Source: an uncultured Bacilli bacterium (GTDB lineage Bacteria > Bacillota_I > Bacilli_A > RF39 > UBA660). Taken from it: a stretch of 40,441 bases of DNA. Shown here piece after piece: positions 5,886 to 40,148 of the stretch. Made by a program: the position numbers and the translations under genes. Each line of letters opens with the position of its first letter. Position 1 is the first letter of the stretch. The stretch lies in NCBI GenBank assembly GCA_944372455.1, contig CALVZF010000009.1, positions 1 to 40,441 of the forward strand, written 5' to 3'. The notes under the pieces are model-generated. The model saw only the letters and a program-made list of their open reading frames with translations, did not search any database and was not told where the DNA came from.

Positions 5886-6554
5886 ATGGAAAATATAGAT
5901 ACAAAAAATTTAAATATATATCAAAAAATACAATTAGCAAAAGTTAAATTATTAGAACAAGGTGTTAAGGCAACAGGAAAAAATACAAATTCAAATTATA
6001 CTTACATGGAGTTAAAAGATTTTTTGCCAAAAATAACAAAAATATTTAACGAATTAAAATTATTTAGCCATTTTGAGATTATTCCACAAAAGGTTGAAAT
6101 AACAGATCAAGGTGAAAAAATAGAACAAGAAAAAGGAATTTTAAAAATAATAAACTCAGATAAAACAGATGAAATAGTAATTTATGCAATGCCAACAGCT
6201 GATGTAAAAATAGGACTTAGAAAAGATGGAACAGGTGGAGCACAACCAATTCAAAATTTAGGTGGTAAAAATACATACATAAAGAGATATTTGTATCAAA
6301 ATGCACTAGATATTGCAGAAGAAGATATTGTTGAAAAAACACCTGTAGAGAAAGTTGAACTAATTTCAAAGGAAAGGGCAGAAGATATAAAAAAATCTTT
6401 AATTGAATTGAAAATAGACGAAAAAAAATTTTTAAGGTATTACAAAGTAAAAGATGTTTATTCAATACCTACAACACTAGCTGTAGAAATTGAAATGAAA
6501 ATAGCAGAAGCAGAAGAACAAATCAAGCAAAAAGAAAGTGAGGAAATATTTTAA
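5886..6554 (+). CDS. erf: ERF-family single-strand annealing protein
   Basis: 222-aa recombinase of the ERF superfamily, which anneals homologous single strands during phage replication. Signature pieces are NIYQKIQLAKVKLLEQGVKATGKN at the N-terminus and GGAQPIQNLGGKNTYIKRYLYQNALDI near residues 118-145. The C-terminal part is a variable charged tail. AGGAGG precedes ATG 5886. SSB at 9881 is the expected partner. Confidence 0.88.
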   Translation: MENIDTKNLNIYQKIQLAKVKLLEQGVKATGKNTNSNYTYMELKDFLPKITKIFNELKLFSHFEIIPQKVEITDQGEKIEQEKGILKIINSDKTDEIVIYAMPTADVKIGLRKDGTGGAQPIQNLGGKNTYIKRYLYQNALDIAEEDIVEKTPVEKVELISKERAEDIKKSLIELKIDEKKFLRYYKVKDVYSIPTTLAVEIEMKIAEAEEQIKQKESEEIF

Positions 6555-16253: not shown

Positions 16254-16625
16254 GTGAAAAAAGTGTTATTCGGAGTAATTGCATTAATTTTTACATTATC
16301 ATTAACAGGGTGTACTGAAGAGTTAGATACTGAGCTTACTGGAAACACTGATGAACTAGTTTTAGAAGATGGACATTCAGGTGAAGCTGATGAATATGGA
16401 ATGACTTACTACATTAATGGATATGTAAAAAACGAGTCAGATAAAGAATATTCATATGTACAAATAAACTTTAATGCATATGATGCAGATGGAAATACTA
16501 TAGGAAGCTGTTTAGCAAACAACAGCGGACTTGAAGCAAACGGAAGATGGAAGTTTGAAGCATTATGTTCAGGAGATGCTAACAGTATAGCTAGTTATGA
16601 ATTAGACGAAATAACAGGATATTAA
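16254..16625 (+). CDS. Phage-encoded lipoprotein, FxLYD-like
   Basis: 123-aa lipoprotein: signal peptide 1-19 with lipobox LTGC, Cys20 as the lipidated residue, acidic linker, then a beta-sandwich domain (YYINGYVKNESDKEYSYVQINF, then YDADGNTIGS) of the FxLYD type. GAGGAGG precedes GTG 16254. It would be anchored on the outer face of the membrane of the lysogen; superinfection exclusion or lysogenic conversion is a reasonable guess. It lies in a gap between early and late modules, a usual site for cargo genes. Confidence 0.75.
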   Translation: MKKVLFGVIALIFTLSLTGCTEELDTELTGNTDELVLEDGHSGEADEYGMTYYINGYVKNESDKEYSYVQINFNAYDADGNTIGSCLANNSGLEANGRWKFEALCSGDANSIASYELDEITGY

Positions 16626-16680: not shown

Positions 16681-16754
16681 CGCAGGAGTAGTGTAATAGT
16701 AGCATACAAGTCTCTTTAGCTTGTGGAGTGGTGCAAATCCAACTTCTGCAACCA
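16681..16754 (+). tRNA. Initiator-like tRNA with anticodon CUU (reads AAG)
   Basis: 74-nt tRNA-like sequence, cgcagga ... ttctgcaacca. The acceptor has six pairs plus position C1 facing A72, a mismatch that marks bacterial initiator tRNAs; the end is A73 plus encoded CCA. The anticodon arm is a 5-bp stem (caagt 16707-16711 with gcttg 16719-16723) and the loop ctCTTta, anticodon 16714-16716, compared with ctCATaa in tRNA-fMet. A T-loop tgcaaat and the end gcaacca also resemble tRNA-fMet. Deviations: 3-nt linker before a GUGU/GCAU D-stem, small variable loop, only three good T-stem pairs, and no GGG/CCC in the anticodon stem. A degenerate elongator tRNA-Lys or pseudo-tRNA is the alternative. 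It directly precedes the small terminase gene, which starts with AAG. Confidence 0.7.
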
Positions 16755-16777
16755 AAGACAATAAGGAGGTGGTATCA

Positions 16778-17128
16778 AAGAGAAGAAAGTTTAAAAGCGC
16801 AAAAGAATTTGAAAATAAATTTTTAAACTATCTTAATAACTGCAAATCCAGTGAAAAGCTACCTAATATAGCAGGTTTTTGTGTTTTTGAAGATATGAAT
16901 AGGGACACGTTCTATGCACAAGAAGACTTGTATTCCGACACGTTTAAAAAAATCAATGATATATTGGAAGATGAAGCATTAAATTGCAAGTGTTTAACAG
17001 ATGCAAGAGTTATCTTTTATATGAAAAATAAATGCGGTTATAAAGATAAGCAAGAACTAGATACCACCAATTCAAATAGAATAGAAATCATAAACGATTT
17101 GCCAAGTGATGTAGATGAAAATAAGTAG
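16778..17128 (+). CDS. terS: Terminase small subunit, AAG start
   Basis: 116-aa protein directly before the large terminase and overlapping it by 14 bases. Basic start (RRKFKSAKEFENKF), then a helical HTH-like region (ENKFLNYLNNC...DTFYAQEDLYSDTFKKINDILEDEAL) and a helical C-terminus, as in TerS, which recognises phage DNA for packaging. AAGGAGG (16763-16769) lies exactly 8 bases before AAG 16778-16780, the natural start position. The only nearby canonical start in frame, GTG 16769, overlaps the SD. The next ATG would remove about 40 residues. Assignment to TerS rests on context. Confidence 0.75.
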   Translation, partial: KRRKFKSAKEFENKFLNYLNNCKSSEKLPNIAGFCVFEDMNRDTFYAQEDLYSDTFKKINDILEDEALNCKCLTDARVIFYMKNKCGYKDKQELDTTNSNRIEIINDLPSDVDENK

Positions 17129-18476
17129 TCTAGTTGCTCCTTCTTTTTGGAATACTTTCAATTCAAAAAAACCAAGACAAATAGACAAAGGTGGAAGAGG
17201 TTCTACAAAAACAAGCAAAAATTCATTAAAAGTGAATTTCCATTGTTTAGAAGAAGAAAGATGTAGTGCTATTGTCATTAGAGAATATCAAAATACATTA
17301 AGAGATAGCGTATATAAAGAAATTAAAAGAGCATTAAAAAGATTAGGACTTGTAGAGAATATTGATTATTCATGTAGTCTACAACCTTTAAGAGTTAAAT
17401 TAAGTAACGGTAATAATATTTACTTTGCTGGTGCTGATGATTATGAAAAACTTAAAGGTATGATAGACGAAAATACACCTATTAAAATTGTTTGGTTTGA
17501 AGAGTTAACAGAGTTCAAGAATGAAGAACAAATAGAGCAGATTATTGCCACATTTTCAAGAGGAAATGACGACTGGTTTATTTCTCTTTATTCATTTAAC
17601 CCACCAAAAAATAAATATCATTGGGTTAACCAGTGGGTAGAAAAAATGAAAAATAGAGAAGATGTACTTGTTACTAATTCCGATTATAGAACAGTACCAG
17701 AAGAATGGCTCGGTAAGATGTTTATTGACGAAGCTAAAAGAATGGAAAAGTTTGATAATAAACGTTATCGTTGGATTTATCTAGGCGAAGTAATCGGAAT
17801 GGAAGGACTTATTTATAACCCTCAAATGTTTGAGTATGTAGATAAGGATTACATAGAACAGAACAACTTAAGAATTCTCTATCTAGATTTTCCTGTTGAT
17901 GGTGGACATCAAACGTCGGCTACTACTTGCGGGTGTTATGGACTAGCAAGTGATGGTTATTGGTATTTGTTAGATACTTACTATTATTCTCCAAATGAGA
18001 AGCCTAAAAAGAAAGCACCTAGCGAGTTATCAAGAGATATCTTTAACTTTGAAATAGCTATGATAAAGAAATGGAAATGTGGAGAAGATAAAGAAACCAT
18101 AGATTCTGCAGAGGGAGCTTTGAGAAATCAATTGTATACCGACTATGGAAAAAGATTTCATCCGGTCAATAAAGGTAAATCAAAAGAAGAATTAATTGAT
18201 TATTCACAGGCTTTTCTAGCAAAAGGAAAGTTTAGGATATTAGATAATAATAATAACAAGATTTTCAAGAAAGAAAATGAAAATTATATGTGGAAAGAGG
18301 GAACGGTTGAAAAAGGCAAACCAGAGCCTGATGAAACAGAAAAAGAGTTTATCGGTGAAGAACCTTATTACAATAGTTGGTCTAATGATTATTCATATTA
18401 TTATGCAGATCATACACAAGATGATTTTCAGTATTGGGTTAAAGATAATTTAAGTAAATTAGGAATAAAGGAGTAA
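17115..18476 (+). CDS. terL: Terminase large subunit
   Basis: 453-aa packaging motor and nuclease. Walker A GGRGSTKTS at residues 26-34, Walker B-like IKIVWFEELTEF near 115-125, and nuclease-type acidic residues in LYLDFPVDGG (near 255) and later DSAEGALRN. The N-terminus ISSLVAPSFW matches this terminase family, so ATG 17115 is the true start. It overlaps terS. Together with the portal it forms the DNA-packaging machine. Confidence 0.93.
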   Translation: MKISSLVAPSFWNTFNSKKPRQIDKGGRGSTKTSKNSLKVNFHCLEEERCSAIVIREYQNTLRDSVYKEIKRALKRLGLVENIDYSCSLQPLRVKLSNGNNIYFAGADDYEKLKGMIDENTPIKIVWFEELTEFKNEEQIEQIIATFSRGNDDWFISLYSFNPPKNKYHWVNQWVEKMKNREDVLVTNSDYRTVPEEWLGKMFIDEAKRMEKFDNKRYRWIYLGEVIGMEGLIYNPQMFEYVDKDYIEQNNLRILYLDFPVDGGHQTSATTCGCYGLASDGYWYLLDTYYYSPNEKPKKKAPSELSRDIFNFEIAMIKKWKCGEDKETIDSAEGALRNQLYTDYGKRFHPVNKGKSKEELIDYSQAFLAKGKFRILDNNNNKIFKKENENYMWKEGTVEKGKPEPDETEKEFIGEEPYYNSWSNDYSYYYADHTQDDFQYWVKDNLSKLGIKE

Positions 18477-18569: not shown

Positions 18570-18578
18570 GTGATTTAA

Positions 18579-20045
18579 AAGGAATTATATCAAGATATAC
18601 AAAGCAAATTAAGTAAAAAAGGAATTAATCTTGTTGTTGGAAATATTTACGATATGATGGCTATATGGAAGAGTTGGTATCGTGGTAATGTTAATGATTT
18701 CCATTATTACAATAGGAAAATGGCAGATGGTACAACAAAAAAATGCGAAAGACTAACTATGAATATGCCAAAAAAGATATGTGAAGATATATCAAAATTA
18801 GAATGGTCTGAAAAGGTACAAATAAAACTTGATAAGAAGAAAAATACGGAAAGACTATTAGAAGTATTAGATAGCAAAGAAAACAATTTTATGACCAATT
18901 TTCCAGCATTTCTTGAGAGAGTTTTTGCACTAGGTACAGGAGTTACTGTTGAATATAAGAAAAATGATAAAACATTAATTGATTATATTGATGGTGATAT
19001 AGTAATTCCTTACATGTACACCAACAGTTATATTAATGGTTTAATCACAGTCAGTAGATTTACCAAAGGTACAGAAACTAATAAAAAATATTTTACACAT
19101 ATTACATATCACGAATTCAAAGATGGGAAATATACAAAATTAAATGAACTTTATAAATCAAGCACTGACAATACATTAGGTCGTGAAATTGATTTTAACA
19201 GTGAATTCCCAGATGTCATAGAATTTGAAAGTTATGAAACAGACACACCACATTTCCAAGTATGGAAACCTTTAATTGCTAATAATTTTGATACAGATAG
19301 TCCGATGGGATTATCTATTTTAGCAAATCACATAGATAAATTTAAAGCAATAGATACTAAATACGACAGTTTTAATCGTGAGTTTGTTACAGGTAAGAAA
19401 CGTGTATTAGTTGATAGAACAACAGTTAAAAAGAAAGCTGAATCAGATGCAGAAGGAAATATAAATTATGTAAGCTATTTTGATACTGATGATGAAGTTT
19501 ATGTAGCAATATCTGGTATGGAAAATCAACCCGTTAAAGAAATAGATTTTACATTAAGATATGAAGAACATATAAATTCTATAAATGCAGATTTAAATTA
19601 TTTAAGTGCTGGCGTAGGACTAGGTCAAAACTTTTATAATTTTGAGGGTCAAGGAGTTAAAACTGCGACAGAAGTAGTATCAGAAAATAGTGATACTTAC
19701 AGAACTAAGAAACATCACGAGATTATGGTTAATGACTGTTTATATGATTTAGTTAAAGCTATTTGTTATCTTGAAAATATACCTTATAAATCAATAAATA
19801 TTGTATTTGATGATTCAATTATTGAAGATGAGAATGCTTTAATAAAACGTGGTTTAGAATTATACCAAAATAAAGTTATTTCACTTGAAAAGTTTATGCA
19901 AAAATACTTACATTATGAAGATAGTGAAATTCAAGAAGAAATAGCTAGAATAGAAAGTGAAAATAAATTAGTTCAACCTGAAGGGTTGGACTTTTTCGGT
20001 ATGAGTGAAAATAAAGAGAAATCTGAAACTACACCTAATGAATAG
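18579..20045 (+). CDS. Portal protein (SPP1 gp6-like), AAG start
   Basis: 488-aa portal, the dodecameric channel at the capsid vertex. INLVVGNIYDMMAIWKSWY followed by RGNVNDFHYY matches the conserved start region of Firmicute SPP1-type portals; part of it lies upstream of the first ATG (18654), so the true start must be earlier. The frame opens at TAA (18576-18578), and the next codon is AAG 18579-18581, with AGGTG 6 bases before it. No ATG, GTG or TTG occurs between that TAA and 18654. The leader gtgatttaaAAGG is identical to that of the capsid gene. Confidence 0.9.
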   Translation, partial: KELYQDIQSKLSKKGINLVVGNIYDMMAIWKSWYRGNVNDFHYYNRKMADGTTKKCERLTMNMPKKICEDISKLEWSEKVQIKLDKKKNTERLLEVLDSKENNFMTNFPAFLERVFALGTGVTVEYKKNDKTLIDYIDGDIVIPYMYTNSYINGLITVSRFTKGTETNKKYFTHITYHEFKDGKYTKLNELYKSSTDNTLGREIDFNSEFPDVIEFESYETDTPHFQVWKPLIANNFDTDSPMGLSILANHIDKFKAIDTKYDSFNREFVTGKKRVLVDRTTVKKKAESDAEGNINYVSYFDTDDEVYVAISGMENQPVKEIDFTLRYEEHINSINADLNYLSAGVGLGQNFYNFEGQGVKTATEVVSENSDTYRTKKHHEIMVNDCLYDLVKAICYLENIPYKSINIVFDDSIIEDENALIKRGLELYQNKVISLEKFMQKYLHYEDSEIQEEIARIESENKLVQPEGLDFFGMSENKEKSETTPNE

Positions 20046-20057
20046 GGGTTGGTGTAA

Positions 20058-21251
20058 ATGTCTTTAGATGAATTAGAAGAAAATGTTGAAAGACTTTATA
20101 TTGACATGGAAAATGAATTGCTTTTGAATATTGCTAAAAAGCTGTCTGCTGGTAAGTCTATGGAGATAGATAAATGGGATGAAATAAATCAGCAACCTTT
20201 GGTAGGTAGTGGCGAAGTAAATGAATGGCAATTGCAAAGATTAAAAGAACTTAATGGATTAAATGAAGAAAACGCAAAGATAATTGCGAAGTATTCTGGC
20301 AAAACTGTTGAAGAGGTAAATAAAGTCTTTGACAGAGCTAGAGAAATAGGTATGACAAGAGATGAAACCCTTATTCAAGAGGGCATTAAATTGGGAATAC
20401 TTAATGCAATAGAGCCTGATACCGAAGAATTGATAGCTAAAAGCATTTTATCAAACGCAGTTGAAGAAATATTAACTACATTTAATACACAGAATAATAG
20501 CCTTTTAGTAAGTGCTGGAGAAGAATATAGAGATATAGTCAATAAAGTATCTTCTCAAGTGCTAGCAGGTACTAAAACCACTAATAAAGCTATGCAAGAA
20601 GCCGTTAGTCAACTTGCAGAAAAAGGTTTAACTGGTTTTACTGCTAGAAATGGAGCAAGATGGAATCCAGAAGGCTACACAAAAATGGTTATCCGTTCAA
20701 ATACACAGAATACTATAAATCGTATTCAAGATGAGAGAATACAAGCTTGTGGTGGAGACTTCATAGAAATTAGCTCACATTCTGGAGCAAGACCTTTATG
20801 TAGTCAAGATCAAGGCCAAGTATTTTCACTAAGTGGTTATTCTGGTTACATTGAAGATTTAGATGGCAGCAGAGTTAAAGTTAGACCGTGGAGTTCTTCA
20901 ACTTATGGAAAACCTGCAGGAATACTAGGCATTAACTGTCGTCATTCAAGGTATATGTTTGTTCCTGGTTTGTCAAAAAGACGAGAAATGGACTTCACTA
21001 AAGCAGAAAATGATGAGGCTTATATAGAAAGTCAAAGACAACGTCAGTATGAAAGGACTATCAGAAATAAAAAAAGGGAAATAGCAATGCTTAAACAAAC
21101 TGGTGCAGAACCAAATTACATTAAGGGGAAACAAAACAATTTGAGCGACACTAGAAAAGAATATCTAGATTTTTTAGATAAGACTGGTAGAACTAGAATA
21201 ACAGCTAATGAATGGATAGGAACAATAAAAAAAAATAGCACTGCTTTATAA
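20058..21251 (+). CDS. Minor capsid protein (Phage_min_cap2-like, MuF-type region)
   Basis: 397-aa head protein. The block RWNPEGYTKMVIRSNTQNTIN followed by HSGARPLCSQDQGQVFSL and GINCRHSRYMFVPGLS is typical of phage minor capsid protein 2 / MuF-like proteins that attach to the portal and enter the head. ATG 20058, with AGGGG and GGTG upstream, is a normal start. Gene order portal - minor capsid - scaffold - capsid is standard. Confidence 0.88.
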   Translation: MSLDELEENVERLYIDMENELLLNIAKKLSAGKSMEIDKWDEINQQPLVGSGEVNEWQLQRLKELNGLNEENAKIIAKYSGKTVEEVNKVFDRAREIGMTRDETLIQEGIKLGILNAIEPDTEELIAKSILSNAVEEILTTFNTQNNSLLVSAGEEYRDIVNKVSSQVLAGTKTTNKAMQEAVSQLAEKGLTGFTARNGARWNPEGYTKMVIRSNTQNTINRIQDERIQACGGDFIEISSHSGARPLCSQDQGQVFSLSGYSGYIEDLDGSRVKVRPWSSSTYGKPAGILGINCRHSRYMFVPGLSKRREMDFTKAENDEAYIESQRQRQYERTIRNKKREIAMLKQTGAEPNYIKGKQNNLSDTRKEYLDFLDKTGRTRITANEWIGTIKKNSTAL

Positions 21252-22019: not shown

Positions 22020-22035
22020 AAGGAGAGTGATTTAA

Positions 22036-23166
22036 AAGGCAAACGCAATTCAAACAAATGGTACTCACGAGAGACAAGAACGTTATGAAAATAACATTGT
22101 TAAATTAATGAGACCATTATTAAAAATCAGAAACACTTTTTCAAGTGACTACGAAGGAGAACCAGTTTCAGGTGCTGTTAAAGTTCCAGTTAGAAATATG
22201 GATCCAGAAATTAAACCTTATGATGTTAAAAATGGTGTTGATTTAAGTCAATCAGCAACTAATTATTTAACTATTTTAGTAGATGAACATGATGCTATTA
22301 ACGAGTTGATTGATGGTTATGAAGCTAGTGCTGTGCCTGATAATCTAGTAGCACAAAGATTAGAAGCAGGTGCATATGCTAGAGCAAAAAAACTTGAAGA
22401 CCATGCTGTTAATGCATTAAAAAATAACTCAATTGTTTCAACTCAAGCAGATTGTACAGAAGCTAATGTTTATTCAAATATTGTTAAAGATATTGCTATT
22501 CAAGCAAAAAGAGGAATTGATAAAAATAGAATGTATGTAGCCGTTTCTTATGAAACTGAAACACTGTTACTAACCGATGAGAAATTTTCTAACAGTGCAT
22601 CACAAATTGGTGCAGAATTAGCTAGAAATGGTATTATTGGTAGAATTAACGGTGTTAATGTAATTACTGAAGATTTGGGAGAAAATACTTCTGGACAAGC
22701 TATTGAATATATAATCTATGGTGTTGACTGGACTCAAAAAGTTGATGCTTGGAAAGTAGGTCTAGCTGTAAATGATTTGAAAGATGGCAAACATGTTGGT
22801 GCATCTGCTTTACAAGATAGATATGTATATACAGATACTGTTACTAACAAAAATGCTGTTCTTGTTAAATCTAAAGTTGGTATTTCCGCTGTAAACATTA
22901 CTCCAGTAACTAATTTATCTGGAACATTAGCTGACGAAACTAAAGTTGCTGATTTAGCAAGTGTTGGTGGTAGTGGAACTGTAACTTATACATTACCTAC
23001 TGGTGTAGCTGACAATGCTAAGTTTGAGATTAGTTCAAATACTGTAATTACAGCAGATGCAACTGTTGCACCAGGTACTTATACTATTGTAGTTAAGGGT
23101 ACTGATACAGCTAGCAATGAAGCTTCAGCAACTGCTGTTATTGAAGTAGCAGAAGCTAGTGAATAA
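22036..23166 (+). CDS. Major capsid protein with Ig-like C-terminus, AAG start
   Basis: 376-aa capsid protein with HK97-like fold features expected for this position. From AAG 22036-22038 it reads (M)ANAIQTNGTHERQERYENN, a typical start of this capsid family; the first ATG (22108) would remove 24 residues. AAGGAGAG (22020-22027) lies upstream and TAA (22033-22035) directly precedes the AAG in frame. Residues about 275-376 (ISAVNITPVTNLSGTLADE onward) form an added beta-sandwich, Ig/cadherin-like, likely displayed on the capsid surface. Leader gtgatttaaAAGG as in the portal gene. Confidence 0.9.
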   Translation, partial: KANAIQTNGTHERQERYENNIVKLMRPLLKIRNTFSSDYEGEPVSGAVKVPVRNMDPEIKPYDVKNGVDLSQSATNYLTILVDEHDAINELIDGYEASAVPDNLVAQRLEAGAYARAKKLEDHAVNALKNNSIVSTQADCTEANVYSNIVKDIAIQAKRGIDKNRMYVAVSYETETLLLTDEKFSNSASQIGAELARNGIIGRINGVNVITEDLGENTSGQAIEYIIYGVDWTQKVDAWKVGLAVNDLKDGKHVGASALQDRYVYTDTVTNKNAVLVKSKVGISAVNITPVTNLSGTLADETKVADLASVGGSGTVTYTLPTGVADNAKFEISSNTVITADATVAPGTYTIVVKGTDTASNEASATAVIEVAEASE

Positions 23167-24357: not shown

Positions 24358-24750
24358 ATGAATATAGAATCTTTAATTACTTTATTAAGAAATGAAATAG
24401 AAAAAACTGGGTATAAGTGTAAATCTCCTGACTTGCCACCAGATGGAGAAAATATTGTATCCATTTCACTTGGTCAAGGAACAAACCAAAGGTCGATTAC
24501 TAAGGATATCCTATATAGCGATATTCCATTTTATTTGCTGATTAGAGGAACTTCTAACGATACTAACACTAGAACTATTGCAGATACTATTTTTAATCAA
24601 TTAGACCATAAAGAAAATATAGAAAATAATAATTTAAGAATTATTTTAATAAGTTGTAGTACTCCAAATTATGCTTTTAGAGATGAAAATCAAAGGATTC
24701 ACTATAACATTAATGCGACTATTAAGGTCGAATGGAAGGAGGAATTTTAA
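24358..24750 (+). CDS. Minor capsid / tail terminator protein (Minor_capsid_3-like)
   Basis: 130-aa protein; order directly before the tail tube gene and the alpha/beta pattern (ISLGQGTNQRSITKDILYSD, then LIRGTSNDTNTRTIADTIFNQL) fit a tail terminator. AAGGAG precedes ATG 24358. Its stop TAA overlaps the first base of the tail tube AAG. Confidence 0.75.
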   Translation: MNIESLITLLRNEIEKTGYKCKSPDLPPDGENIVSISLGQGTNQRSITKDILYSDIPFYLLIRGTSNDTNTRTIADTIFNQLDHKENIENNNLRIILISCSTPNYAFRDENQRIHYNINATIKVEWKEEF

Positions 24751-25205
24751 AGGCACAATATGAAAGTTCTGTAAAAAAATTTTTAGTACAATTTGATTTA
24801 AGTGAAGATGAAACACCAGACTGGGAGGATTTAATTTCACTTACAGTCGGTTATGATCAAGGAGAAACTCTTGACACATGGCAAGATTTATATAATTTCT
24901 TGTCAAACAATGTTAAGACTGGATTAGATCCTACTTGGTCTGTATCAGTAAAATTAGATAAGACAAATCCAGTATGTCAATTTATTTTAGATAAAGAATT
25001 CGCTGTTGGTGCAGAGGCTACTGCAAAAACAAAGATTGTAAACTTACTTAAAGGTACAAGTGGAAAGCAAATAGAATTTACTTCTACTTTAAGTTCAATT
25101 TCTTATGAAGCAAACGCTGAAGAAGTATTACAAATTGATTTTGACTTAAAAGTTTATGATAATTCAACATTTGAGGAAACAGATTATACAGCACCAACTG
25201 GCTAA
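24750..25205 (+). CDS. Major tail (tube) protein, AAG start
   Basis: 151-aa tail tube protein; reads (M)AQYESSVKKFLVQFDLSEDE and is beta-rich with TSTLSSISYEANAEEVLQIDFDLKVY near the end. AAGGAGG (24736-24742) is 7 bases before AAG 24750-24752, the ideal distance. An in-frame ATG at 24732 lies upstream of the SD itself, with only a weak AAGG before it, and would add MEGGIL. A terminator follows, as often found behind highly expressed tube genes. Confidence 0.85.
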   Translation, partial: KAQYESSVKKFLVQFDLSEDETPDWEDLISLTVGYDQGETLDTWQDLYNFLSNNVKTGLDPTWSVSVKLDKTNPVCQFILDKEFAVGAEATAKTKIVNLLKGTSGKQIEFTSTLSSISYEANAEEVLQIDFDLKVYDNSTFEETDYTAPTG

Positions 25206-25692: not shown

Positions 25693-26249
25693 ATTTATTA
25701 AAAATTGATGATAAAGAATACTATTTAAACATTACATTTAAAAATGTAATGAAAATTTTTAAATTAATGAAAGATAATACTCCAGAAAATATTAAGAAAA
25801 GCATTGAACTGTTAGGTATAAGTGGTTTATCTTTTGAAGACCAAGCTATAGTTTTAGATGAAATTACTAAATACGTATTTGACATGAATCAACGACATTC
25901 AAATGGAGAAAAAACTTTTGATTTTGAATTAGATTATAAATATTATTTTGTTGATTTTCTAAATTTTGGTAATGGAATTAATCTTAATAAAGATGAAATT
26001 TCATGGTGGGAGTTTGATGCTATTTTAGAGGGAATTTTTTTAAATAAAGATTCTATTTTATCTACTGTTTTAGATTATCGATTATACGAAAAACCATCTA
26101 AAAATCCAAAAGTACAGGAAGAAAAAGAACATAAGTTTAGAATGAAGATGAAGAGAAAATATTCTCTACCTATCAAAACAAATGTTGATGTAGGATTAGA
26201 AAAATTATGGAATTATGTTGAAAAAAAGGTAGGTGAAAATAAAGAATAG
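25608..26249 (+). CDS. Tail assembly chaperone, frameshifted part (gpGT-like / Gp15)
   Basis: The -1 frame continues from the slippery site through FRKNLCGQENITNKYFEYTP into the region starting at ATG 25749. That ATG has no good SD, so synthesis mainly as a fusion (25261-25614 then -1) is likely. The C-terminal part (PENIKKSIELLGISGLSFEDQ, then KYSLPIKTNVDVGLEKLWNY) resembles the Bacteriophage Gp15 family. It ends inside the tape measure start region. Confidence 0.8.
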   Translation, partial: FFRKNLCGQENITNKYFEYTPSQDFKQLNLLKIDDKEYYLNITFKNVMKIFKLMKDNTPENIKKSIELLGISGLSFEDQAIVLDEITKYVFDMNQRHSNGEKTFDFELDYKYYFVDFLNFGNGINLNKDEISWWEFDAILEGIFLNKDSILSTVLDYRLYEKPSKNPKVQEEKEHKFRMKMKRKYSLPIKTNVDVGLEKLWNYVEKKVGENKE

Positions 26250-28530
26250 TGATGCAGTTGTAAAGTTCTTAATTGATTTAAGTAATAAAAACGCAATAAA
26301 AGGTGTAACAGAACTAGAAAAAAAAAGTTCTGCACTAGCAAATAAATTTAATCAAGCAGGAAAAGCTTTGACAATTGGATTAACAACACCAATTGTTGCT
26401 TTTGGAACATATGCAGTAAAAACTGCTACTGATTTTGATAGAGCAAGCAATCAAATTCAAGCAGGTTTAGGGTTGTCTACAGATAAAGCTAAAGAATTTG
26501 ATAATGTATTACGTGAAATGTATACAGCTAACTATGGTGAAAGTTATGAAGATTTAGCAAATAAAATTTCATATGTTGCTCAAGCAACAGGAGAAGTAGA
26601 CCCTAGTAAAATTAAAAATCTTACCGAAAATGCTATAGCGTTAGAAGAAACATTTGGGTCTGATTTTAATGAAACAATTAGAGGCGTAACAAACTTAATG
26701 ACACATTTTGGCATATCATCTGAAGAAGCTTTTGACTTATTTGCTAAAGGTAGTCAATCAGGATTAGATTATACAGCTGAGTTAGGAGATAATATAGCTG
26801 AATATGGCGGAAATTTCAAACAAGCTGGATATAGTGCAGCGGAATATTTCCAATTATTATCTAATGGAACAAAAAATGGTGCATATAATCTAGATAAGGT
26901 AAACGATTCTATTAATGAAATAAAAAACAGAATAGGCGACGGCACAATTAAAGAAAATTTATCAATGTTTAGTTCCGAAACAAAGACTATTTTTAAAAAT
27001 TGGGAAAATGGTAAAGGAACTATGAAAGATGTCATTAATTCTATCGTTTCTGATATATCAAATTGTGAAAGTGAACAAAAACAATTAACTATGGCAGCTA
27101 CTGCTTTCGGAACAATGGGAGAAGACGCTAACTTAAAAGTTGTAACATCATTAACTACAGTTGGTAATGAATTTAATAACGTTAAGGGGTCAATGGAAAC
27201 TCTTAAAGAAGTAAAATATGATGATTTAGGTAGTATGTTAGAGTCTTTAGGAAGGCAATTTAGCGATATAGCTCTTGATGTAGGAAATGAATTAATGCCA
27301 ACTATTCAATCATTTATGGGTAAAATTCAAGAACTTGTTAATTGGTTTAAAAGCCTAGATCCAGAAACAAAGACAATGATAGGAAACATAGCTAAGATAG
27401 CAGTTGTTGTCGGTCCTACTTTAATAATCTTTAGTAAGCTGATTAATACAATAAAGGACATAGATTCAGCATTTAAATTTTTATCTTCAAAAGGTAGTAA
27501 AGCTATTGAAATGATTCAATCATTTGGAGGACATGTAAAAAATGGACTGAATACTATAGCAAAGTTTACAAAAAGTTTAGGCAAAATGGCATTAGAATTT
27601 GGAAAAAGTGCTTTACAAGCTGGGATAGCTACTGTTAAATTTATTGCTCAAAAAACTGCAATGTTGGCAAGTGTAGTAGCAACTAATGCGATGGCGGCTG
27701 CTCAGGCAGCATTAAACTTCATAATGTCCTTGAATCCTATTACTTTAATAATAATTGCTATAGTAGCTTTAATAGCTATTTTAGTTGTTCTTTGGAATAA
27801 ATGTGAATGGTTCCGTGATGGAGTAATGACTGTTATAAATGCAATATGGGGAGCTATACAAGTAGCAATAGATTTTATTGTTAATTTATTCACTACTTTG
27901 TTTAATATAATTTGGGGATTAATACAATCATATGTAAATTTTTGGATAATGGTCTGGACTACTGTCTTTAATGTAGTAAGTACAGTATTAACGAACATAT
28001 GGAATGTAATACAATCAGTATTTAACTTTATATGGGGTATTATTTCAGGAGTTATAAATAGTATAATCTCAGCTTTTCAAACAGTAGCTAACGTTGTAAA
28101 AAGTGTTTTTAATTCAGTTAAAAATGCTATTTCATCTATATTTAGTGGAATAGTCAATATAATAAAAGCTCCAATTAATGGACTAATTGGGTTAGTCAAC
28201 GGTGTTATTAAAGGACTTAATAAAATCAAACTTCCAGATTGGGTACCAGGAATTGGTGGAAAAGGAATAAATATTCCTTTAATACCTAAGTTAGATACAG
28301 GAACTAACTATATAGCTCGTGAAGGACTAGCATATCTACATGAAGGTGAAGCAGTTGTACCAAAAAAATACAATCCTGCTATTGGTGGGTACGGTAATAA
28401 TTATCAGCCAAATATTACAATTATAGCAGAAATGCAGACAGATAAATTCGGACAAGTATTTGTTAGCAACATTAAAACATTATCAAATGGTTCAAAAGGT
28501 GACTATAATTATGGTGGAGGAATTAAATAA
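26242..28530 (+). CDS. Tape measure protein, AAG start
   Basis: 762-aa tape measure protein, which sets tail length. N-terminal TMP domain with helices (LIDLSNKNAIKGVTELEKK, then TDFDRASNQIQAGLGLSTDKA), a hydrophobic membrane-active stretch at about 480-540 (MSLNPITLIIIAIVALIAIL) and further amphipathic repeats. AGGTG (26231-26235) lies 6 bases before AAG 26242-26244. GTG 26233 in the same frame is inside the SD. Reading from AAG gives (M)NSDAVVKFLIDLSNKNAIKG, a normal start for this family. Confidence 0.9.
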   Translation, partial: KNSDAVVKFLIDLSNKNAIKGVTELEKKSSALANKFNQAGKALTIGLTTPIVAFGTYAVKTATDFDRASNQIQAGLGLSTDKAKEFDNVLREMYTANYGESYEDLANKISYVAQATGEVDPSKIKNLTENAIALEETFGSDFNETIRGVTNLMTHFGISSEEAFDLFAKGSQSGLDYTAELGDNIAEYGGNFKQAGYSAAEYFQLLSNGTKNGAYNLDKVNDSINEIKNRIGDGTIKENLSMFSSETKTIFKNWENGKGTMKDVINSIVSDISNCESEQKQLTMAATAFGTMGEDANLKVVTSLTTVGNEFNNVKGSMETLKEVKYDDLGSMLESLGRQFSDIALDVGNELMPTIQSFMGKIQELVNWFKSLDPETKTMIGNIAKIAVVVGPTLIIFSKLINTIKDIDSAFKFLSSKGSKAIEMIQSFGGHVKNGLNTIAKFTKSLGKMALEFGKSALQAGIATVKFIAQKTAMLASVVATNAMAAAQAALNFIMSLNPITLIIIAIVALIAILVVLWNKCEWFRDGVMTVINAIWGAIQVAIDFIVNLFTTLFNIIWGLIQSYVNFWIMVWTTVFNVVSTVLTNIWNVIQSVFNFIWGIISGVINSIISAFQTVANVVKSVFNSVKNAISSIFSGIVNIIKAPINGLIGLVNGVIKGLNKIKLPDWVPGIGGKGINIPLIPKLDTGTNYIAREGLAYLHEGEAVVPKKYNPAIGGYGNNYQPNITIIAEMQTDKFGQVFVSNIKTLSNGSKGDYNYGGGIK

Positions 28531-39236: not shown

Positions 39237-40148
39237 ATGAATTATAAACAATTAACAGAAAAAAATAAAGTATAAATAGATATTTTGTTAAAACAAAATT
39301 TATCAATGAGAGAAGTAGGAAGAAGATTAGGAATAAGTCATTCAACAATATCAAGGTATAAAGCAGGAATATATAAGAAAAGAAAAATAGATATAAATAA
39401 AAAATATGAGATATTTATAAAATATTTATTTGACCATTATGACAGAAGAGATCATTCAATAGAAGTATGTGTATATCAATTTAAAAAACAATATATAGGT
39501 GCGAAAAGCGTAAGTGTAAAACAAGTATATAATTGGATAGAACAAGGGAAAATACATTTAAAAAGAGATGATTTATGTTATAAAAGACATAAAAAGAAAA
39601 AACGAAGCGGAATGATGGAACATTTTCTGTGGAATCTGGAGAATAAGACAATATTACCAATAAGTTTAAGGCCAAAATATATTGAATATAGAAATGAACC
39701 GGGTCATCTAGAAATAGATTCAATATTAGGCAAAAAAGACGAACAACAAGCTATAATATCTATAGTAGACAGATGTACAAGGAGATTGTGGTTAATTAAG
39801 GCAGAATATCGATATGATTATTACACAGCAAACTTAATATATAAATATATAGTATCAAATGATATAGAAGTAAAATCAATAACAGTAGATAACGGACTAG
39901 AATTTAGAGCATTAGGGATAGCGGCAAAAAGATTGGGAGTAAAACTATATAAATGTGATCCATATTGTTCATTTCAAAGAGGAAGTAATGAAAGAACGAA
40001 TGCATTAGTAAGAAGATACTTACCTAAAGGTATGTCATTTAAAATGACACCACAAATATATTTAGATGATATAGCATTCAATATAAATTCAATGCCAAGA
40101 AAAATTTTCGGATTTAAAAGTTCATATGAAATAGAATTAAAGTATTAA
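39237..40148 (+). pseudogene. IS30-family transposase with in-frame stop
   Basis: ATG 39237 (AAGGAGG upstream) opens MNYKQLTEKNKV, then TAA at 39273-39275 interrupts; the same frame continues as IDILLKQNLSMREVGRRLGI (HTH) to 40148. DDE residues are present: D in HLEIDSILG, D in TVDNGLEF, E in SNERTNALVRR. One base change restores a 303-residue transposase. Re-initiation at TTG 39285 is possible but would lose about 16 N-terminal residues. Confidence 0.85.

Follow-up and report, generated by a model that had tools for sequence, protein, structure and literature searches.

What is encoded by the 74 nucleotides that precede the late genes of this phage, and at which codon would the product act? 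The window, the whole stretch of 40,441 nucleotides analysed here, represents a prophage in a small-genome bacterium (1.15 Mb in 49 contigs). From its letters, the original prediction had described a tRNA-like gene with an A73-CCA end and the anticodon loop CTCTTTA, and interpreted it as an initiator tRNA redirected to AAG.

16681..16754, + strand: initiator-type tRNA, anticodon CUU (16714-16716), encoded CCA end, C1.A72 mismatch (evidence: Rfam, family covariation, relatives compared with host tRNA-fMet)

Coordinates and letters of the gene were borne out. C16681 stands opposite A16750, A16751 is followed by CCA at 16752-16754, and the loop CTCTTTA holds CTT at 16714-16716. Covariance-model scoring with Rfam RF00005 matched 16682-16750 with 39.1 bits (E 6e-5), above the gathering score of 29, and a whole-genome search recovered the window tRNA at E 4e-7. 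A genuine tRNA gene, not a chance resemblance, occupies 16681-16754. ARAGORN did not call it in the window, owing to its irregular arms, and since the minimum of single-sequence folding was not a cloverleaf, covariance evidence was used for this copy. The predicted mismatch of C1 and A72 is present, but in the window copy it caps a 7-bp acceptor stem (8 steps in total), whereas it occupies the standard 1:72 position in regular relatives. The T stem of the window copy consists of 3 bp plus G.A, so that the extra acceptor step and the shortened T stem together keep the usual 12-step acceptor/T stack. Its D stem shows U:A in place of A11:U24. Near the tRNA, a promoter scan performed no better than shuffles and a terminator scan found no + strand terminator just upstream.

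Relatives were gathered by anticodon-free pattern scans of genomes and viral contigs, complemented by a scan for the CTCTTTA loop. The loop is found in every family copy and the anticodon is CUU in all members. Eight distinct copies show the irregular form (window, L001, L025, L029, L063, L250, L253 and L254, with L255 the same as L063) and seven a regular or near-regular cloverleaf (L225, L260, L268, L269, L272, L325 and L326). Pairing is complete (100% of cells) in both groups, with 4 pairs changed on both sides among the irregular copies and 9 among the regular copies aligned with host tRNA-fMet. Position 1:72 lacks a Watson-Crick pair in 15/15 distinct copies, being C.A everywhere except for C.U in L029; in the irregular copies, this 1:72-type mismatch caps an extra base pair, the acceptor gaining one step and the T stem losing one. 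L325 and L326 form a link between the two forms, combining regular arms with the irregular form's changes in the D loop (AGTAG) and T loop (TGCAA). Judged by this comparison, the copy in the window is a derived and rearranged version of an initiator-type tRNA in which CUU has replaced CAU. The earlier objection that the D and T arms are irregular is thus true of the window copy, but is accounted for in part by a derived subform to which regular relatives exist. The family has six other carriers, all of them genomes of uncultured 'Bacilli' or 'Tenericutes'.

A corrected T-arm pattern, free with respect to both anticodon and start codon, returned CUU members, all with AAG, and otherwise ordinary CAU tRNAs without AAG plus chance matches. 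With the pattern one base longer, only CAU phage tRNA-fMet genes and chance matches were obtained, while the pattern ACCA...GGTGGTATCNAAG yielded mostly chance matches but also L225, the key regular member. Two candidate relatives were discarded as chance, L256 and L105 (G002), the latter situated inside a gene that is peptidase-like by eye. BLAST of the 75-nt tRNA against annotated phages gave, among the matches listed, tRNA-Met or unannotated sequence; five unannotated human-faecal matches were inspected and carried the anticodon CAU, once CAA. No annotated phage matched the window region at the DNA level. An initiator-like tRNA with anticodon CAA, which would read UUG, lies at 401-477 of L408 (MT835577.1 2471-3347), a human faecal phage contig. 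Its T stem is damaged and a terminator-like hairpin follows; it could be decayed or an attachment-site copy.

The regular members clearly belong to the initiator class, contrary to the decayed elongator that the original prediction had considered as an adverse outcome. A11:U24 is present in 7/7 regular copies, which share the GCAACCA end with host tRNA-fMet. When L225 and L268 were compared with the host tRNAs, tRNA-fMet was the best match at 78% identity, the next best reached 64-65%, and Lys was outside the top six. Bacterial tRNA-fMet (host L293) resembles the phage tRNA in the missing 1:72 Watson-Crick pair, in A11:U24 of the regular copies, and in the GCAACCA end, the T loop and the general sequence, and differs in the anticodon, in A37 where the phage tRNA has U37, and in the third anticodon-stem pair. 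In the CUU members, 29:41 is mostly G-C, 30:40 always G-C and 31:39 U.G in every one. Hence the suspicion that the GGG/CCC pairs are absent is correct for the third pair, a conserved U31.G39, but most members retain the other two G-C pairs of the three. In E. coli, both the third G-C pair and A11:U24 help initiator function. Recognition by initiation factors and formyltransferase may be altered by the U.G pair and, in the window form, by the lack of A11:U24. The CUU tRNA appears to work like an initiator and to derive from the initiator class, but since 31:39 is U.G in every CUU member it is described as initiator-like and not as a standard tRNA-fMet. Copies of tRNA-fMet with CAU are also present in phages.

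Directly behind the tRNA follows the gene for the terminase small subunit.

16762..16771, + strand: Shine-Dalgarno TAAGGAGGTG of terS, matching the complement of the 16S 3' end over 9 bases, at good spacing from AAG
16778..17128, + strand: terminase small subunit (terS; phrog_606), AAG start aligned to the starts of homologues

The terS AAG aligns with the TTG or ATG start of homologues from phages without the tRNA, for example L003, L006 and L359; in such TerS homologues, TTG or ATG stands at the AAG position or within a few codons. A suitably placed ATG, GTG or TTG is absent from terS of the window, and in L001, L251, L252 and L255 the frame from the preceding stop to AAG contains none of the three. 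A GTG within the Shine-Dalgarno sequence is in frame in the window; it was rejected as a start because it overlaps the Shine-Dalgarno sequence and is out of frame in these four relatives; the ATC in GGTATC is out of frame as well. GGTG followed after 6-7 nt by AAG is kept in nearly all tRNA-bearing loci, and unrelated TerS types all start with AAG when located beside the tRNA. A Shine-Dalgarno sequence and AAG are found downstream of every family tRNA but one. In this exception, L025, the tRNA (355-428, - strand) is directly followed by an ATG gene, and the contig ends 428 nt on, before the portal gene. The arrangement suggests a role of the tRNA in trans, for genes farther away.

Downstream of the tRNA extends a terS-terL-portal-head-tail cluster.

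17115..18476, + strand: terminase large subunit (phrog_3717, phrog_2), ATG start overlapping the end of terS; ATG kept in tRNA-bearing loci
18579..20045, + strand: portal protein (phrog_533), AAG start right after an in-frame TAA, Shine-Dalgarno AGTAGGTGAT
20058..21251, + strand: minor head protein (phrog_581), ATG start in the window
22036..23166, + strand: major capsid protein (phrog_267), AAG start right after an in-frame TAA, Shine-Dalgarno AAGGAG
24750..25205, + strand: major tail protein (phrog_820, weak), AAG start
26242..28530, + strand: tape-measure gene, probable AAG start behind Shine-Dalgarno AGGTGA; same arrangement in L029 and L260

Scanning the window for a Shine-Dalgarno sequence plus AAG identified terS, the portal gene at 18579, the major capsid gene at 22036, the major tail gene at 24750 and the tape-measure gene at 26242. 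The linked AAG start is real and extends beyond one gene. Further calls at 5967 and 6620 lie within ATG genes. For the portal protein, the phrog_533 match extends from residue 14 onward, and the first ATG encodes residue 26, 12 residues later, so that a start upstream of this ATG is required. The stop codons directly in front of AAG (18576-18578 and 22033-22035, and TAA or TGA in homologues) may have been selected against read-in or may reflect an AT-rich spacer. In the major tail gene an in-frame ATG (24732) stands upstream of the Shine-Dalgarno sequence; the homologues in tRNA-bearing phages all display a Shine-Dalgarno sequence plus AAG, and several are without any ATG, GTG or TTG near the start. 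The tape-measure gene probably starts at AAG as well, less certainly than the others, and the GTG at 26233 overlaps its Shine-Dalgarno sequence. The minor head homologue of L255 carries AAG at the codon that is ATG in the others (MSLDELEEN versus KSLEKLQEQ). The overlap of terL with terS makes translational coupling of the two genes possible.

For comparison with sister phages, a TerL-profile scan that took account of neither tRNA nor start codon gave 43 relatives with a TerL identity of 48-83%; more distant ones were excluded. The portal gene starts with AAG in 13/13 tRNA-bearing loci versus ATG in 30/30 usable loci without the tRNA, and the capsid gene with AAG in 8/8 versus ATG in 18/18, some loci being one phage in two samples (L337/L338), so that distinct phages are slightly fewer than these counts. 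Every tRNA-bearing locus of sufficient length has the portal AAG start, and those reaching further have it also in capsid and tail genes. AAG at homologous start positions was encountered only in phages with the tRNA. Beyond the first codon the aligned N-termini are little changed, as illustrated by the capsid proteins KANALGTGTHKRKE (L337, AAG) and MANALGTGTHKRKE (L358, ATG). In 11/13 portal and 6/8 capsid genes, AAG comes immediately after an in-frame stop, so that there is no upstream start, and the next ATG in these genes is located about 25 codons inside or is absent. The original prediction had allowed for homologues with other anticodons and no linked AAG starts; the opposite was found: CUU is kept, and AAG starts accompany it in the genes for TerS, portal, major capsid and major tail.

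When codons of any kind were counted 6-9 nt downstream of Shine-Dalgarno cores where ORFs begin, AAG made up 23/144 cases in tRNA-bearing loci, second only to ATG, versus 4/324 in loci without the tRNA (Fisher p 2.4e-9); all four of the latter lie directly beside an ATG. On the late side of the tRNA, 40 AAG calls were made in 102 kb, a few of them probably false positives, compared to 3 in 72 kb on the early, upstream side, which are all beside an ATG and spurious. The TerL, adaptor and connector genes use ATG in nearly all cases, irrespective of the tRNA. At position -1, A precedes 21/21 portal and capsid AAG starts versus 32/49 ATG starts; it would pair with U37 of the tRNA, which is suggestive only. 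Two tRNA-bearing phages additionally encode a tRNA-Pro(UGG) in the late region (L346:7452-7526 and L348:12910-12986).

In the TerL tree the tRNA-bearing phages form one clade (support 100/99). The system hence arose once in this sample, and the clade-level association represents one origin. Inside the clade, TerS has been swapped for different types, each with AAG beside the tRNA, and the minor head gene of L255 constitutes a further change. An initiator-like tRNA-Met(CAU) occurs in sister phages without the CUU tRNA (L361:7100-7176 and L362:2884-2959); a tRNA of this type is a plausible source, and possibly the ancestral state, of the CUU tRNA.

These data make it very likely that the phage encodes a second initiator tRNA (CUU), probably carrying lysine, which starts virion genes at AAG; the supposed redirection of an initiator tRNA is supported by the initiator-class regular relatives, the kept CUU and the linked AAG starts. 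The sequences themselves show the initiator-type body, the CUU anticodon, AAG starts that are forced, their strict co-occurrence with the tRNA and their restriction to the late side. The phage tRNA would have descended from a bacterial-type tRNA-fMet, and its CUU anticodon would pair with AAG; as C34 should read G only, AAG and not AAA is expected, which matches the observation. Heading the late operon, the tRNA would be co-transcribed with the late genes, and after maturation would enter the ribosomal P site at AAG codons behind strong Shine-Dalgarno sites. The genes started in this way would be those for TerS, portal, major capsid and major tail, and probably the tape-measure gene; ATG remains the start of the genes in between. 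With fMet-tRNA alone, host ribosomes should initiate the AAG genes poorly, so that virion synthesis would be locked until the late transcript supplies the tRNA. With the tRNA first in this transcript, virion translation would be doubly dependent on late transcription, presumably the purpose of the arrangement. Another possible purpose would be to continue virion synthesis when the host initiator tRNA is attacked, but full independence from the latter is disfavoured because the same operon contains ATG genes, unless these are translationally coupled. Counted against this explanation are the ATG gene of L025, the U.G third pair, the U:A at 11:24 in the window and the single clade.

The main competitor is the same initiator tRNA acting at the same AAG starts but carrying formylated methionine; in this case the codon would have changed and the first residue would not. 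A tRNA-fMet-type body and acceptor end favour the formyltransferase, and alanine as second residue of the capsid protein would suit removal of methionine. However, CAU is the main signal for MetRS, whereas CUU together with A73 constitutes a Lys identity set (PMC9976931). In bacteria, Lys identity is specified by anticodon and A73, and a Lys anticodon confers Lys identity on human initiator tRNA (PMC9976931). As CUU and A73 fit these published rules, lysine is the more probable first residue, and methionine charging is rather unlikely.

An ordinary elongator tRNA-Lys(CUU) supplementing AAG decoding is very improbable. ARAGORN labels the regular members tRNA-Lys(ctt), but a Watson-Crick 1:72 pair is missing in all 15 distinct copies, A11:U24 is found in all regular ones, their nearest host tRNA is tRNA-fMet with Lys beyond the first six, the host genome already has a tRNA-Lys(CUU), and AAG at homologous start positions would be left unexplained. 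Initiation at non-cognate codons could to some extent be forced by strong Shine-Dalgarno sites. AAG might then be a weak start for host fMet-tRNA that keeps virion genes low, the tRNA being unrelated. Yet no codon other than AAG is involved, and it is found always in phages with the tRNA, aligned genes of sister phages lacking it show no AAG starts, and high output is needed from the major capsid and tail genes, which makes this account just as improbable. The least probable proposal is that the element does not function as a tRNA but forms part of the late mRNA leader and serves processing or regulation in cis. Its constant position a few bases upstream of the next Shine-Dalgarno sequence would agree with this, but the anticodon loop does not vary and corresponds to start codons at kilobase distances, CCA is encoded, and L025 retains the tRNA before an ATG gene.

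The preferred reading, a second initiator tRNA for AAG, has man-made counterparts. Engineered initiator tRNAs with changed anticodons start at matching non-AUG codons, e.g. UAG with CUA (amber; PMC8576571, PMC13232202), and initiation with AAG/CUU, one of several such pairs, has been reported to work in vitro (PMC13232202). They share the initiator body with a new anticodon, whereas the phage system is natural, conserved in a clade and has several cognate starts. Phage tRNAs with anticodon-loop changes that evade host tRNA-targeting defences have been described (PMC10264068); the changed loop is common to both, but here the start codons changed too.

Phage suppressor tRNAs gate late genes through stop-codon recoding. 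There, too, a phage tRNA opens late genes that the host cannot fully read, but the present case concerns initiation instead of stop codons and no codon is reassigned in elongation. A search of the open literature (5.39 million papers), with subscription journals mostly outside its scope and absence therefore no proof, revealed neither a natural initiator tRNA with its own start codon nor AAG starts in phages. To our knowledge, it would be the first natural second initiator tRNA with a start codon of its own.

A natural orthogonal initiation code, in which the main virion starts were moved from ATG to AAG and the sole initiator tRNA reading them is supplied by the phage, probably with lysine first, is likely. 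In bacteria, the use of a single initiator tRNA that starts translation at AUG and its near relatives is regarded as universal. If the proposal is true, the meaning of start codons can evolve, late phage genes are under an unusual lock, and protein engineering gains a ready-made orthogonal initiation pair. It would also explain the failure of gene finders, which place capsid and portal starts 25 codons late or miss the gene and label the tRNA as tRNA-Lys. The first residue, the need for formyl and the acceptance by IF2 and IF3 become testable.

Three further features of the window concern the prophage and its borders. An integrase-like gene adjoins the 5S rRNA gene that closes an rRNA operon (386-490 and 605-1672, - strand), and the attachment site of the prophage may therefore be located there. 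Directly upstream of the tRNA lies a small lipoprotein-like gene (16254-16625) with phrog_14275 in its C-terminal part; small lipoprotein-like phage genes are sometimes superinfection-exclusion factors. Beyond the prophage, a transposase/integrase-like gene, IS30-like by eye, is present at 39285-40148.
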